Source: Gemmatimonadota bacterium (lineage in GTDB: Bacteria > Gemmatimonadota > Gemmatimonadetes > Gemmatimonadales > Gemmatimonadaceae). Taken from it: a DNA stretch of 64,000 nucleotides. Location: NCBI GenBank assembly GCA_028287235.1, contig JAQBQB010000018.1, positions 62,001 to 126,000 on the forward strand, given 5' to 3'. Each line of letters starts with the position of its first letter. The stretch's first letter is position 1. The position numbers were made by a program, and so were the translations under genes. This document shows, in pieces, positions 2,935-64,000 of the stretch. Below the pieces are notes generated by a model. The model did no database searches, was not told the origin of the DNA, and saw nothing but the letters and a program-made list of their open reading frames with translations.

Positions 2935-4104
2935 CTACGATCCCGACGCCGGGAGCCTCGCGATGCGGTAGACGATTCCGCTCGCCGCCGTGACGTAGAG
3001 CTCTCCGCTCGCGTCTTCGCCGAACGACGTGATGGCCCCGATCGCCGCAATACCCCAGTCGCGCGCATCGGTGGCCGTGCCCCCAATCACGCGGATGCTG
3101 CGCAGCCATCCGCTGCAGTAGTCCGAGTAGAAGTATGTCCCGGTCACTTCGGGGATGCGCGAGCCGCGATACACGAATCCTCCTGTGATCGAGCAGCCCT
3201 GCGAGTGGTCGTAGTCGAACACCGGCAGCGTGAGTCCCGTGCGGTTGCAGGTGGCGGCGGCGTAACAGCTCGTTCCTTCCATCACGTTCCAACCGTAGTT
3301 CACGCCGCCCTGAGTTGCGCGCACCGCGTCGATCTCCTCGCGCGCGCCCTGTCCCACGTCGGCGATGTACAACAGGCCCGCCACGCGATCGAACGCGAAG
3401 CGCCACGGGTTGCGCAGCCCCAACGCCCAGATCTCGCCGCGCGCGCCCGCCTGGCCGACGAACGGATTGTTCGCCGGCACGACATACGGCAGCGCGCCGT
3501 TCACGTCGATGCGCAGCAGCTTGCCCAGCAGCGCGTTTCGGTTCTGTGCGTTCCCAAGCGGATCGCCCGCCGAGCCGCCGTCGCCCATGCCGATGTACAG
3601 CATGCCATCGGGCCCGAACATGAGCAATCCGCCATTATGGTTCGCGAATGGCTGGGCGACGCCGAGGATCAGCGTGGTGCTCGCCGGGTCGGCGACGTTG
3701 CGGTCAGCCGAGACGTGAAAGCGCTCCACGCGCGTGTCGCCGTTGACGTCCGTGAAGTCGACGAAGAAGAAGCCATTGGTGGCGTACTGCGGATGAAAGG
3801 CGACGCTGAGCAGTCCGCGCTCGCCGCCGGTCGAGACGCGGGCACGGAGGTCGAGGAAGGGGGCGGTCAGTAGGGCGCCGTTGGCGACGATCCGGATGCG
3901 TCCGGTCTGCTCGACGATGAAGAGACGGGCGTCGTTCGGGGGCGACGCGACGTACAGCGGGCTGCTCAGGCCGGTGGCGACGGTGTCGAGCTTGAGCGTG
4001 ACGCTGTCGGGCGGCGCTGTGAGCCCGCCGGCAGAGCCGCCGCAGGCTGCGAGCGCGGCGCAGAGAAGAAGGTGTCGCACACCCGCCACCGCTGCGATTC
4101 CCAT
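2935..4104 (-). CDS. PQQ-dependent sugar (aldose/sorbosone) dehydrogenase lipoprotein
   Basis: 389 residues from ATG at 4104. A lipoprotein signal peptide ends in ALAAC with Cys21 as the lipidation site. The rest is a six-bladed beta-propeller of the soluble glucose dehydrogenase/YliI group: [13 protein letters not shown] with the catalytic-type His, NHNGG followed by [23 protein letters not shown], and [11 protein letters not shown]. Such proteins oxidise aldoses or aldehydes in the periplasm with PQQ. Not all members are active dehydrogenases and no PQQ synthesis genes are in the window. It is transcribed divergently from rpmE. Confidence 0.85.
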
Positions 4105-59340: not shown

Positions 59341-59445
59341 CGCTCAGGATGACATGGGTGTCGCTCAGGATGACATGGATGTCGCTCAGGATGACATGGA
59401 TGTCGCGCAGGATGACATGGGTGTCGCGCAGGACGACATGGGTGT
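59341..59445 (+). repeat. Five-unit 21-bp tandem repeat
   Basis: Five head-to-tail 21-base units at 59341, 59362, 59383, 59404 and 59425, each close to CGCTCAGGATGACATGG plus ATGT or GTGT. Units 1-3 have CGCTCAGG, units 4-5 CGCGCAGG. They differ by one or two substitutions and no indels. The array starts 35 bases after the ABC gene stop and its last base is the first base of the convergent gene's stop codon. Confidence 0.95.
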
Positions 59446-59981
59446 CACGGCCGGCCGCCGCCCATCCGCTCGCTCAGCAGCTTCTCCGTCTCCTGTTGCT
59501 GCTTGGCGAGCAGATCCTTCGCTTTGCTCTGTTGGTCGGCATCGAGCGACGTGATGGCCGCCTTACCCGCCTCGTCGTAGCTCGTGCGGATCGCGACGAG
59601 CACCGTCATCAGGCTCACGCGCGCGTCGCGGAGCCGCGTGCGCTCTTCCGCCGACGAGTTGCCGCTGGGGCGCAGCTCGTGCACCAGCGAATCCACGGCC
59701 TTGAGCAGCGGCGCATCGGTCTCCTTCAGCTTCGGCTCGGCGTCCTTGAGCGTCGACAGTTGCGCATCGGTGAGCTTGAGATCCTTTCGCTTGTCAATGA
59801 GCAGCTTTAGAGGACTCTGATCCTCGAGATCGCGGGCGCGAAGGCTCGGGCCTTTCGGCATCGAATCCTTGCCGAAGAGCTCCGTGCGTTTATCGGCCTG
59901 GGAGCGCGTGCCGCCCCCGCGTTGGCCTGCGGCGAGCGACGGCAGAACGAGCAAGGCGACGAGCAGCAGACGGCGGGACAT
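59445..59981 (-). CDS. Small periplasmic helical protein (Spy/CpxP-like layout)
   Basis: 178 residues from ATG at 59981, with AGGAG (59989-59993) upstream. The signal peptide (residues 1-20, LLLVALLVLPSLAAGQ) precedes an all-helical mature part: LKLLIDKRKDLKLTDAQLS, DAPLLKAVDSLVHEL, and a long C-terminal AKDLLAKQQQETEKLLSERM. This layout is like Spy/CpxP-type LTxxQ chaperones (LTDAQLSTLKD), although the two LTxxQ boxes are not both clear. Its stop codon abuts the 21-bp repeat array. Confidence 0.65.
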   Translation of the reverse strand: MSRRLLLVALLVLPSLAAGQRGGGTRSQADKRTELFGKDSMPKGPSLRARDLEDQSPLKLLIDKRKDLKLTDAQLSTLKDAEPKLKETDAPLLKAVDSLVHELRPSGNSSAEERTRLRDARVSLMTVLVAIRTSYDEAGKAAITSLDADQQSKAKDLLAKQQQETEKLLSERMGGGRP

Positions 59982-60155
59982 GGCGAAACTCCTCGGAAGG
60001 AACGGAATGAAGCGCTAATCTATCGCGCCGACAGCTTGGCGTAAGGCCGCCGCGACCGTTACGCAGCTGTTGAGAAAGCGTCATCGGACGCACGCGTTTC
60101 GCCGGCAAACTGCTCCCCGCAACTCTCTTCACACCTTTTGCGGGGACTCGTCGCC

Positions 60156-62564
60156 ATGCCGTCGATACCACTTCATCATATCGCCGCGCTGCTCGCCGGC
60201 GCATTTCTCGTCGCTGCCTCGCCCGGGCGCCTCCAGGCGCAGCAGGGCGGAGCCGAAGGATCCATCCGCGGCCGAGTCGCCGACGCCGCGAAGACCGGTG
60301 TGCCGGCCGTGACACTCCACGTCAACGGGACGCGCCTCGGCGCGTACTCCGACACGCAGGGTGAGTACGTCGTCGCCCACGTTCCTGTCGGGTCCTATAC
60401 GGTGAGCGTGCGTCGCACCGGCTTCGCGCCCGACTCGTTCTCCGTCGACGTGCATGCGGGCGAGGTGGTGACGCACGACGTCGCCCTTCGTGCCGCGGCG
60501 CAGTCGCTCGGCCCGGTGCTGATCAGCGCTTCGCCGCGACTCAACGAAACGAAGGAACAGGCCCTCGAGAAGCAGCGGAACGCCGACAACTTCATCGTCA
60601 TTCTGTCCGGTGACGTGATCCGCGCGCTGCCGAGCGCGAATGCTGCCGAGGCCGCGGCACGCCTTCCCGGTGTCTCGACGGAGCGCGACGAAGGCGAAGG
60701 AAAGTTCGTGCAGATTCGCGGCACGGAGCCGCGCCTGTCGAACGTCACGGTGAACGGCGTCCACATTCCCGGCACCCAGGCGGGCAGCCGCGTCACGAAG
60801 CTCGACGACGTCCCGACCGATCTGCTGTCGGCGATCGAAGTCTCCAAGACGCTCACGGCCGACCAGGACGCCGACGCGATCGGCGGATCCGTGAATCTCG
60901 TGACGAAGACTCCGGAGGGCGCGCCCCGCGGGTACATCGCCGGCCAACTCGGCCAGGCAACATTGGAGCAGCGGCGGCAGGGGCAGGGGAGCGCCATGTG
61001 GGGCGGCCGCTTCGGCGAGCAGCGCAAGCTCGGCTTTCTCGCCGGCGCCACGTACGACCACAACAATCGCGGCATCAACGACGTCGAGCTGGCGTGGGAC
61101 ACGAACGCCGAGGGCACACCCATCCCGATCGAATGGGATCAGCGCGACTATCTCTACGACCGCACGCGATTCGGCGCCAACACGGCGCTCGATTACCGCT
61201 TCGACGACGGCTCCACGATGTTCATGCGGGGCGCGTGGACCAAGTTCCAGAACTTCGGCGTCGTCTACCGGTACGACGTCGCGGCGAATGGCGATTCATC
61301 GCAGGCGTCGTCGGGCGCCGCGGGCATCGGCACCGGCGCCGATCTCACGCGCAACACGTCGAACCGCACGCCCATCGAGCAGCTGTTCAGTCTCAACGGC
61401 GGCGGAAAGAAACTGTTCGGCACCGTTGAAGTGAACTATGGCCTGAACTACTCCGGCACACGTTCGACGTCGGCCGACGCCAACTCGAGCGCCTTCACGT
61501 ATAGCGGCCTCAATGTCCGCTACGACGGTACCAATCACAATTATCCGAGCTACAGCTACCTCTCGAGCGCCGACCAGGCGATCGCGACGTCGCCGTCGAG
61601 CTACAAGTTCAAGTCGGCGTCGATTGGCGCGGGCCGAACGAAAGCCGACGAAACCGGCGGCCAGCTCGATGCGCTTTTCCACTACGTCATGGGTGGAAGC
61701 GAGGCGCAGCTCAAGATCGGCGCGAAGTATCGCGACGAGAGTCGGGACAACGTGAACCTCAACCGCAGCTTCGTCGCGAACGGTAACTTGCCGCTCACCC
61801 AGGTGCTCGGAAGCTTCACCGACGCGAACTTCTATCAGGACCTCGCGAAAGGCTACGACATCGGCCCGCAGGCGAACCACAGCACCCTGCGCGCCTTCGA
61901 GTCGGCGAACCCGTCGATGTTCAAGGAGACGACCAAGCCGCTCTCGGATTCGCTCAGCAACTTTACCGGCGGCGAGAAGGTCGCCGCGCTGTTCGCGATG
62001 CACACCATGGATCGCGGCCCCGTACGACTCAACGTCGGCCTCCGCATGGAGAACACCGACGTGAATTTCAGCGGCAACGCCGCAACCACGCCGGCCGAGG
62101 CCAACGGCAAGGCGACCGGCCCGCAGGTGGTGCGCCGGGTGACGGGCACGCAGAACTACACGGATTTGTTTCCGAGCGCGCAATTTCGTATCGCCGCGGA
62201 CGAGAACAGCAACATTCGCTTTGCCGTGACGCGCGGAATCGCGCGCGCCAACTATTCGGATCTGGCGCCGCACGTCGCCGGCGAAGCGTGCTCGAGCTGC
62301 GCGCTCCGATTCAACAACCTCAGCGTGGGCAACCCCGACCTCAAGCCGCAAGGCGAACGCCGAGGAGCGCGTGTCACTGGAGCACCTCGCGCGGCCGTCG
62401 CCGGAACCCGGGGCGAATCCGTTTCACTACGTGATCGTGCACGTCGACGGCGACAAGATCAGCACCGAAGTGGTCGGCGTCGACTGGGGGAAGGGATTCG
62501 AGCCGTATCGATCAAGCTCGGCGTCGTTGGACTCCAAGCCGTAGGCAGAGCGACTATGACGTGA
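60156..62564 (+). CDS. TonB-dependent receptor, C-terminally truncated
   Basis: 802 codons from ATG at 60156. A signal peptide ends near LQAQ. Residues about 35-110 are a carboxypeptidase-like pre-domain (IRGRVADAAKTGVPAVTLH), then the plug (about 135-250: GVSTERDEGEGKFVQIRGT, DDVPTDLLSAIEVSKTL, GGSVNLVTKTPEGAP), then barrel strands. The recognisable receptor ends at GNPDLKPQ (about 62,351). The remaining ~70 codons are Arg-rich and do not look like receptor, and a normal receptor would continue for about another 200 residues. The barrel would be open, so the protein is probably non-functional. See the finding on the junction. Confidence 0.75.
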   Translation: MPSIPLHHIAALLAGAFLVAASPGRLQAQQGGAEGSIRGRVADAAKTGVPAVTLHVNGTRLGAYSDTQGEYVVAHVPVGSYTVSVRRTGFAPDSFSVDVHAGEVVTHDVALRAAAQSLGPVLISASPRLNETKEQALEKQRNADNFIVILSGDVIRALPSANAAEAAARLPGVSTERDEGEGKFVQIRGTEPRLSNVTVNGVHIPGTQAGSRVTKLDDVPTDLLSAIEVSKTLTADQDADAIGGSVNLVTKTPEGAPRGYIAGQLGQATLEQRRQGQGSAMWGGRFGEQRKLGFLAGATYDHNNRGINDVELAWDTNAEGTPIPIEWDQRDYLYDRTRFGANTALDYRFDDGSTMFMRGAWTKFQNFGVVYRYDVAANGDSSQASSGAAGIGTGADLTRNTSNRTPIEQLFSLNGGGKKLFGTVEVNYGLNYSGTRSTSADANSSAFTYSGLNVRYDGTNHNYPSYSYLSSADQAIATSPSSYKFKSASIGAGRTKADETGGQLDALFHYVMGGSEAQLKIGAKYRDESRDNVNLNRSFVANGNLPLTQVLGSFTDANFYQDLAKGYDIGPQANHSTLRAFESANPSMFKETTKPLSDSLSNFTGGEKVAALFAMHTMDRGPVRLNVGLRMENTDVNFSGNAATTPAEANGKATGPQVVRRVTGTQNYTDLFPSAQFRIAADENSNIRFAVTRGIARANYSDLAPHVAGEACSSCALRFNNLSVGNPDLKPQGERRGARVTGAPRAAVAGTRGESVSLRDRARRRRQDQHRSGRRRLGEGIRAVSIKLGVVGLQAVGRATMT
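62350..62544 (+). pseudogene. C-terminal remnant of a metallophosphoesterase-like protein
   Basis: In the frame one base away from the receptor, a protein-like sequence of 64 codons (KANAEERVSLEHLARPSP...NPFHYVIVHVDGDKISTE) reads to TAG 62542-62544. The strand pattern FHYVIVHVDGDKISTEVVG is like the C-terminal beta domain of secreted metallophosphoesterases. There is no start and no catalytic region. It directly abuts the truncated receptor, so a deletion has probably joined two neighbouring genes. Confidence 0.5.
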
Positions 62565-63111
62565 CGCTCGGGGCGATGACGGTTTCCTTCACCCCGAGCC
62601 GTCCGCCGTCGTTATGGTAGCTCAGCACCGCCTCGCCATCGGCGCGCTCGGCGCACAGTTGGCCCACCGTCCCGAAGACAGTCTTGAGCTCGTTCTCGTT
62701 GCACGTCGGCAGATACGCGCGCAACACGCGCGGGTCGTAGTAGCGGAACACGAGCCGCCGGCCGGCTTCGTCACGCACGCGGAGAAAGCGGCGAAAGTGC
62801 ACGCGGAGCGTTTCCATCGGCTCCGTGGTGCGCACGAAGATTCCCCAGCTCTGCCCCCAGCCCAACGAGAGCAGCTCGCGCGTCCACGACTCGCGGCGGT
62901 ACAGATGGACGAGATACGGCGCGCAGCGGTCGAGCACGGGCGCGATCGGTCCACGATACAAGCTCGTGTAGTCCAGTGCGCGCCGCTTGATCCACGGGTG
63001 GATGCGGGTGTCGCGCGCGCAATCGAGAATCACGTAGACGTCGAGCCCCGGAACGTCGGTCCAGAGCGCGGCGGCGATTCGGTCGACGCGCGGCGCGTCT
63101 AGCGTCGTCAC
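62554..63111 (-). CDS. DUF4123 protein (type VI secretion effector adaptor-like)
   Basis: 185 residues from GTG at 63111. DUF4123 blocks are well preserved: VYVILDCARDTRIHPWI, LYRGPIAPVLDRCAPYLVHL, LLSLGWGQSWGIFVR, HFRRFLRVRDEAG, FRYYDPRVLRAYLP. DUF4123 proteins (Tap/TEC group) load toxins onto VgrG spikes in type VI and related contractile systems. No VgrG, PAAR or toxin is visible in the window. Its start overlaps the preceding gene's stop (GTGA). It is convergent with the receptor remnant, with 9 bases between stops. Confidence 0.85.
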   Translation of the reverse strand: MTTLDAPRVDRIAAALWTDVPGLDVYVILDCARDTRIHPWIKRRALDYTSLYRGPIAPVLDRCAPYLVHLYRRESWTRELLSLGWGQSWGIFVRTTEPMETLRVHFRRFLRVRDEAGRRLVFRYYDPRVLRAYLPTCNENELKTVFGTVGQLCAERADGEAVLSYHNDGGRLGVKETVIAPSVTS

Positions 63112-63704
63112 GCCGCCTGGTCCTGGGGCCCATCGGCGGCGGCAGCCTCGCGCTGCTTCTTGCGCTTCTCGCACTCCTCGCAGAACGGTACGCCCGACTC
63201 GGCCGCCTGTTGCAGCACGGCGGCCTGCGCTTCCGCGTCGACTGCGGCGTCGTCGGCCTGAGCCGCTTCGGCGGCCGCGGCAGCGGCGACTGTCGCGGCA
63301 CTCGGTGGGGGAGCGGGCGCGGGCGCGGCGGTTGCCGTTGCGGCTGCACTCGTCGACGTCGCACCCGCGCTGCTGCTGTCGGAGCTCGCGCCGGCGCCGC
63401 CGCCGCTTCCGCCACCGCCGCGCATCCGGCGGCGCATGCCGATCACGATGCGGCCGCTCGCGACGTGGCGGGCGAGCGTGGTGAGCAGCTCGGTGTTCAT
63501 CATCCGCGCGACGTCGGTGCGCGGGTCAGTGTCCGTCAGGATCTTTCGAATCTGGGTGGTCGTCTGCGAATCGACGTCGAGCGACCGGAGGAAGTCGAGC
63601 GCGGCCTCGGGATCCCGAAACTGGAACGACGTGTCCGTATCCTGCTGTTTGTGGCTCGGCAGGAGGACGATGTCACCGAATCGGATCGGGAGGGGCGTCG
63701 GCAT
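63108..63704 (-). CDS. Unknown partner of the DUF4123 gene, Cys-x-x-Cys tail
   Basis: 198 residues from ATG at 63704 (no clear ribosome site). Residues 1-92 are a compact alpha/beta-looking domain with RFGDIVLLPSHKQQ at the start and LLTTLARHVASGRIVIGMRRR at its end. Residues 95-165 are a Gly/Ser/Ala/Pro linker. The C-terminus has CEECEKRKK (Cys175, Cys178), a possible metal-binding knuckle. I do not recognise the family; the coupling to DUF4123 (GTGA) suggests a role in the same secretion or effector module. Confidence 0.55.
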   Translation of the reverse strand: MPTPLPIRFGDIVLLPSHKQQDTDTSFQFRDPEAALDFLRSLDVDSQTTTQIRKILTDTDPRTDVARMMNTELLTTLARHVASGRIVIGMRRRMRGGGGSGGGAGASSDSSSAGATSTSAAATATAAPAPAPPPSAATVAAAAAAEAAQADDAAVDAEAQAAVLQQAAESGVPFCEECEKRKKQREAAAADGPQDQAA

Positions 63705-63751
63705 GCCGGAATGAATGGTGAGGCGGACAATCGACGGCGGGAGACCGCCAA

Positions 63752-63803
63752 CGGAGGGCGAGGGATTCGAACCCCCAAGTCCTTGCGGACGCCAGTTTTC
63801 AAG
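63752..63803 (-). other. tRNA-Ser 3' fragment, putative attachment site
   Basis: On the minus strand, an anticodon loop (CTTGAAA, UGA), the 3' stem half ACTGG, a variable arm (GGCGTCCGCAAGGACTT), a T arm (GGGGG-TTCGAAT-CCCTC), the 3' acceptor strand GCCCTCC and discriminator G. The sequence upstream does not pair with ACTGG and no D arm or 5' acceptor strand (GGAGGGC) is present in the remaining 200 bases. It is the displaced 3' end of a tRNA-Ser(UGA) gene, as left by site-specific integration. Confidence 0.75.
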
Positions 63804-63884
63804 TTCGTGATGTGCGTTTGCGTACTGTTGCGACGTGCTGCGTTCGCTTCTAGAGACGCCCTTAGCGCGCGTTGGCATTTCGAT

Positions 63885-64000
63885 CTAATGCTCCGCCAAT
63901 GCGCGCGTTTTGTCGGCCAATGGCCCAGCAGCGGCCCCGACCAGACTGAGCGTCGGTGGAGGCTCAACGAGGGAACGCAGGTGTTCGCGCGAAAGATGAG
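63885..64000 (-). CDS. Probable tyrosine recombinase (integrase), C-terminal end (partial)
   Basis: The frame enters from the right edge and ends at TAG (63885-63887), giving 37 residues. It begins with HLSREHLRSLVEP, matching the YAHL/YSHL-x-x-EHL segment directly after the catalytic Tyr of tyrosine recombinases. The preceding partial codon (NCT) fits the Ala/Ser/Thr expected there, so the Tyr lies just outside the window. The last 24 residues are a loose tail. It reads toward the tRNA-Ser fragment 81 bases away. Confidence 0.5.
   Translation of the reverse strand, partial: HLSREHLRSLVEPPPTLSLVGAAAGPLADKTRALAEH

Follow-up and report, generated by a model that had tools for sequence, protein, structure and literature searches.

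A tRNA-Ser(UGA) gene of a Gemmatimonadota bacterium as the probable site of two successive insertions of small mobile elements

Integration at tRNA genes is well documented in Islander, which holds 3,919 tDNA islands; 3,760 of these have 3' fragments, 2,083 are centred on the anticodon, and 125 tandems comprise two or more members (PMC4383910). Among phage satellites, PLE11 of Vibrio cholerae builds chimeric tails with its own tape measure (PMC12987554). According to the same 2026 paper, no satellite besides PLE11 has been reported to encode a tape measure, and putative cases are listed in PLE-like elements and cf-PICIs (PMC12987554). We analyzed a stretch of 64,000 nucleotides (hereafter the window), corresponding to bases 62,001-126,000 of the 314-kb contig C11 in a 5.73-Mb Gemmatimonadota genome of 31 contigs; window coordinates equal C11 coordinates minus 62,000, and the architecture to the right of position 64,000 was read from the continued contig. 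The end of the window is very probably the outer edge of two small mobile elements that were inserted successively into one tRNA-Ser gene, an outer element 1 (4.1 kb) and an inner element 2 (12.5 kb).

The attachment core at the window end (att copy 1, Table 1) reads CTTGAAAACTGGCGTCCGCAAGGACTTGGGGGTTCGAATCCCTCGCCCTCCGTTGG on the minus strand, and its 56 bp are identical to the 3' part of the intact tRNA-Ser(UGA) (E 1e-22; 100% over query positions 32-87). Because ARAGORN calls no tRNA at this position, the sequence is a fragment without a 5' half. It had been recognized as such in a first-pass annotation made from the letters of the window, which placed the core at 63,752-63,803; the real core extends four bases further at the tRNA 3' side. 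A genome-wide search returned exactly two further perfect copies of the core, at C11:129,847 and C11:142,394, and all three have the same orientation. Copy 2 is a second displaced fragment, and copy 3 belongs to an intact tRNA-Ser(UGA) (C11:142398-142480), the sole intact one found in the genome; the first-pass annotation had predicted such a tRNA to the right, identical in its 3' half. Read rightward, the spacing is 4,099 bp from copy 1 to copy 2 and 12,547 bp from copy 2 to the intact tRNA. Since two more identical copies were found, one a fragment and one within an intact tRNA, the array consists of two tandem elements and not one. To the right, where the element body was anticipated, there are two elements with a displaced fragment between them.

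Three perfect copies of 56-59 bp in one orientation, one of them an intact gene, are far beyond chance, and elsewhere in the adjacent DNA the core aligns no better than shuffled sequences do. A fourth, decayed tRNA fragment was sought to the left of 63,748 and 5' of the tRNA, and was rejected as the best alignments did not exceed the shuffled-core scores. An additional element-like arm, GACTTACGGCG, is common to copies 2 and 3 in their 3' flanks. An 11-base string, TTGGACTTACG, follows the tRNA 3' end both in the flanks of att copies 2 and 3 (L013) and at the tRNA-Cys of L136 (genome G204), and is perhaps an integrase arm site.

Table 1. Features of the integration site, in window coordinates unless prefixed by the contig name
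Feature	Position	Strand	Description
Conserved chromosomal gene	59445..59981	-	Directly follows tRNA-Ser(UGA) in G002 and G003; ancestral 3' neighbour
Interposed 3.77 kb	59982..63747	.	Separates att copy 1 from the conserved chromosome (tblastn synteny, Pfam, alignment scan with shuffles)
att copy 1	63748..63803	-	Displaced tRNA-Ser(UGA) 3' half that starts with the CTTGAAA anticodon loop and extends 5 bp beyond the gene; marks the outer limit of element 1
Element 1 arm	63804..63884	.	81 bp, from the crossover side of the att core to the integrase stop codon (sequence)
Element 1 tyrosine integrase, C-terminal remnant	63885..64000	-	Runs on to ~64,130 outside the window
att copy 2	C11:129847-129902	As copies 1 and 3	Second displaced 3' fragment with identical core

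The recombinase end noted 81 bases from the fragment corresponds to a minus-strand frame that ends at 63,885. This frame encodes ...HDLRHRRV...GHADLRTTMGYTHLSREHLRSLVE..., and the continued contig shows a Tyr directly preceding THLSREHL, where the first-pass annotation had predicted it. The remnant matches the Pfam family Phage_integrase over the C-terminal 65 positions (E 9.3e-9) and a PHROG integrase profile (1.2e-11), which bears out its assignment as the C-terminus of a tyrosine recombinase, and it is 53% identical to the intact integrase of element 2 over their common part. The gene is cut at ~64,130 by an IS5-family element, leaving ~70-80 C-terminal residues, and no integrase N-terminus was recognized beyond the insertion. 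The IS5-family element has two transposase frames matching DUF4096 and DDE_Tnp_1 (Pfam), ends that are inverted repeats, and a 3-bp TTA flanking it on both sides. Of the full integrase that had been expected to the right, element 2 supplies an intact version, but the one beside the fragment is a dead remnant, and its site specificity is unreadable from the truncated protein. Element 1 also carries a RelE-family toxin gene beside an HTH antitoxin-like gene. The G+C contents of the elements are 61.5% and 64.0%, versus 67-68% for the chromosome.

The congeners G002 and G003 provide an empty site, which supports integration: the ortholog of the conserved chromosomal gene (Table 1) starts ~40 bp after tRNA-Ser(UGA), with no element between them. 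The tblastn matches of this gene (L086:1381-1848 and L087:8962-9414) lie ~100 bp beyond the ends of the respective tRNAs (L086:1282 and L087:8864). On the 5' side, the tRNA in G003 and other genomes is preceded by an ortholog of the gene at 92,191-94,566 on the window scale. Since the conserved gene directly follows the tRNA in these congeners, the 3.77 kb interposed between it and att copy 1 is not the ancestral 3' flank of the tRNA, and the earlier reading of the DNA to the left of the fragment as the old chromosomal flank did not hold.

The interposed DNA holds a truncated TonB-dependent receptor gene, a DUF4123 gene and a gene for a 195-residue protein; nothing equivalent adjoins the tRNA in the congeners examined, and a scan against shuffled sequences found no further tRNA core inside it. 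An older insertion, a rearrangement or a lineage-specific flank could account for this DNA. The receptor frame (60138-62564) seems to have its barrel end cut near 62,350 and joined to unrelated sequence, and this junction appears to be a rearrangement scar. The DUF4123 gene (62554-63174, E 3e-30) belongs to a family that usually accompanies type VI secretion effectors; a partner gene was not recognized here. On the other side, the 11.7 kb located 5' of the tRNA (L013:18481 to L014:10190) also lack a counterpart in the congeners and encode a DUF5996 protein, MFS transporters, an HtrA-like protease, a heavy-metal P-type ATPase and a Na/H antiporter. No copy of the tRNA 5' half was found within this block, and integration at tRNA 3' ends does not account for it. 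Because both the 3.77 kb on the left and the 11.7 kb on the right are non-syntenic, the history of the site is more complex than two insertions. Synteny was established by protein searches, because antisense matches in GC-rich DNA overwhelmed a six-frame tblastx comparison of relatives with the contig.

We are highly confident that the outer attachment junction of a two-element tandem array in tRNA-Ser(UGA) forms the end of the window. In the proposed course of events, tyrosine recombinases of one clade, presumably the elements' own, would cross over within the 7-bp anticodon loop. At every integration the element's own 3' half would rebuild the tRNA, and the host 3' half would be displaced outward as a fragment. 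With a complete tRNA regenerated each time and the earlier 3' half left at the distal end, the most recent arrival would be the element closest to the tRNA. Element 1 would therefore have entered first and later decayed, its integrase being reduced to the C-terminus beside the IS5-family insertion, and element 2 would then have entered the restored tRNA and displaced element 1 outward. The decay of the outer integrase and the integrity of the inner one agree with element 2 as the later arrival. The element 2 integrase is located ~2.9 kb from the tRNA and not right at the element end, which counts against this model.

Related integrases were found at E <= 1e-40 in 16 of 395 genomes of the phylum, this genome included, and the named relatives are Gemmatimonadota MAGs. 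At the loci with an intact tRNA in the stretch examined around the integrase, this tRNA is tRNA-Ser(UGA) in G342 and MAG RYN_359, tRNA-Cys at six loci (G391, G172, G059, G326, G204, and G021), and tRNA-Leu in G336. In MAG HOG88, a tRNA-Cys 3' fragment starting from the anticodon loop was seen by eye beyond the integrase C-terminus, in the same layout as at 63,748-63,885. Paired cores were identified in G326 (45 bp, 14,027 bp apart) and G204 (46 bp, 3.87 kb apart), in both cases as a duplicated 3' half from the anticodon loop; therefore, this integrase clade duplicates tRNA 3' halves from the anticodon loop. The integrase tree was mostly unresolved for tRNA choice versus clade.

The complete G326 element (14.0 kb) encodes an integrase, a terminase large subunit, an excisionase-like protein, a primase/helicase, a tape measure and an AbiZ-like protein, and no match to capsid, portal or tube was found in it. 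Its tape measure (626 residues; phrog_1535, E 2.9e-17) matched annotated phage tape measures at 6e-19, has no match in this genome, and is dissimilar in sequence to that of element 2. The G342 locus at tRNA-Ser(UGA) includes integrase, primase, both terminase subunits and regulators, followed by apparently chromosomal genes; a second core was not found there. Judged by gene content, the gene sets of the G326 element and the G342 locus are satellite-like. Across the related loci, an integrase with an excisionase/HTH-like gene recurs in several, and terminase occurs in G326, G342 and L054.

Several side observations were made at other loci. The loci L158, L159 and L160 (G228, G175, and G039, respectively), which hold relatives of the G326 terminase, have no capsid or portal gene obvious by eye. 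Just past the outer tRNA-Cys core of G326 (L142, 4910-5647) there are 3.2 tandem copies of a 232-bp unit, each unit with pieces of the tRNA-Cys T-arm and acceptor in both orientations. In L094 (G006:C46), three near-identical ~47-bp tRNA-Ser 5' halves, extending through the anticodon loop, are scattered among efflux and transport genes at 3870, 16548 and 18767; the corresponding intact tRNA is at the end of another contig, and no integrase was recognized by eye beside the copies. Fragments of 5' halves are rare in Islander, being found in 159 of its 3,919 islands (PMC4383910).

Element 2 extends from att copy 2 to the intact tRNA and encodes an intact integrase of 391 residues. Its other genes encode a DUF1376/primosomal replication protein, an HNH nuclease, a Cro/C1-type regulator, a SWIM-domain protein and small HTH-like proteins, and a 1,490-residue protein is encoded at its outer end. 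Pfam searches for relaxase and type IV secretion genes, which would point to an integrative conjugative element, gave no match among the element genes scanned. The 1,490-residue protein has no direct Pfam or PHROG match, and its homology was therefore taken from positional homologs in prophages. Genome searches revealed homologs in G004, G020 and G034 (29-41% identity, E down to 5e-40). The G004 homolog sits between matches to the tail chaperone and Dit, in a prophage that encodes terminase, portal and major head protein as well, and the G020 and G034 homologs have a phrog_290 tail gene upstream. The C-terminus carries a GGDFAGGARVVGEHGPELEV motif, which we take to be common in tape-measure proteins. 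We conclude that the 1,490-residue protein is a tape-measure protein. No relatives were found in IMG/VR viral contigs for either the integrase or the tape measure of element 2, nor in GenBank phages for the tape measure. The proteins encoded just upstream of the tape measure (10,760-11,576 of L013) are mutually paralogous; they were considered as tail chaperones and rejected, having no match to the proteins at that position in G004, G034 or G020. In G020 there are four near-identical tape-measure genes (C1:7325, C2:885, C2:5308901, and C3:32010), three of them near contig ends, which suggests a multi-copy prophage that breaks the assembly.

It is an even call whether element 2 is a prophage worn down by deletion, which has kept its integrase, replication genes and a leftover tape-measure gene. 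The homologs point that way, as the one in G004 lies in a full tail module and those in G020 and G034 adjoin tail genes; moreover, among the terminase, portal, capsid and tail genes of a complete prophage, element 2 contains the tape-measure homolog only, with no PHROG match to terminase, portal, capsid or tube. However, element 2 has perfect att cores, and its 1,490-residue frame and integrase are intact, as are most of its remaining frames; in addition, the complete G326 element independently joins an integrase, a terminase, a primase and a different tape measure, with capsid and portal undetected. Element 2 likewise has the gene set of a satellite, i.e., an integrase, a regulator and replication genes without a full virion set. 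It can tentatively be speculated, at somewhat less than an even chance, that element 2 and its relatives represent an undescribed family of phage satellites in Gemmatimonadota, which would reside at the 3' halves of tRNA-Ser(UGA), tRNA-Cys and tRNA-Leu and carry terminase and/or tape measure to redirect helper packaging or to set the length of chimeric tails.

With regard to the array as a whole, a single composite element of 16.6 kb, mobilized as a unit and containing the third att copy internally, would also be bounded by identical cores, as both intervals are, and its outer pair could excise jointly. We consider it very unlikely, as both intervals have an integrase gene or remnant of their own, the extra arm is present on copies 2 and 3 as if each ended a separate element, and the related complete element of G326 has one core pair. 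Duplication of a tRNA fragment by chance or recombination beside a housekeeping Xer-type recombinase, without site-specific integration, is extremely improbable: recombination can duplicate tRNA pieces, and Xer recombinases also typically have the C-terminal motif GYTHLSREHLR, but the anticodon loop is the precise starting point of the fragments in every copy as well as in two unrelated elements, the recombinase matches phage integrase PHROGs and has relatives that adjoin tRNAs, the region is absent from the congeners, and no close integrase homolog was found in them, as expected if it is not vertically conserved in the genus.

Integration into a tRNA gene is in itself ordinary and of the textbook kind. 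As in Islander islands, the displaced 3' fragment is identical to the 3' half of the intact tRNA and in the same orientation, the core is anticodon-centred, and an integrase is found in each interval (intact in element 2, a C-terminal remnant in element 1); the tRNA with its fragment, the integrase in the interval and the empty site that characterize such islands are all present. Each member of the tandem has its own tRNA fragment and integrase, one of them intact and one truncated. Unlike in Islander islands, the integrase of the outer element is destroyed here and more non-syntenic DNA is present on both sides. The junction delimits both elements exactly and is evidence of an integration hot spot at tRNA-Ser(UGA) within the genus.

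The prophage on contig C71 of G004 shares with element 2 the tape-measure homolog (~29-35% identity over shared regions), whereas that prophage has matches to terminase, portal, capsid, tail, chaperone and Dit, none of which were detected in element 2 with PHROGs. The possible satellite family is an interesting lead. By gene content, element 2 differs from the phage satellites (PICI, P4-like, and PLE) in having no terminase and in its host phylum, Gemmatimonadota, and resembles them in being compact and att-bounded, with an integrase, a repressor and a replication gene and with capsid undetected; its relatives carry terminase, and PLE11 encodes a tape measure (PMC12987554). If they are satellites, the G326 element and element 2 would extend the tape-measure observation made on PLE11 to another phylum, as a further lineage doing what PLE11 does in Vibrio cholerae.
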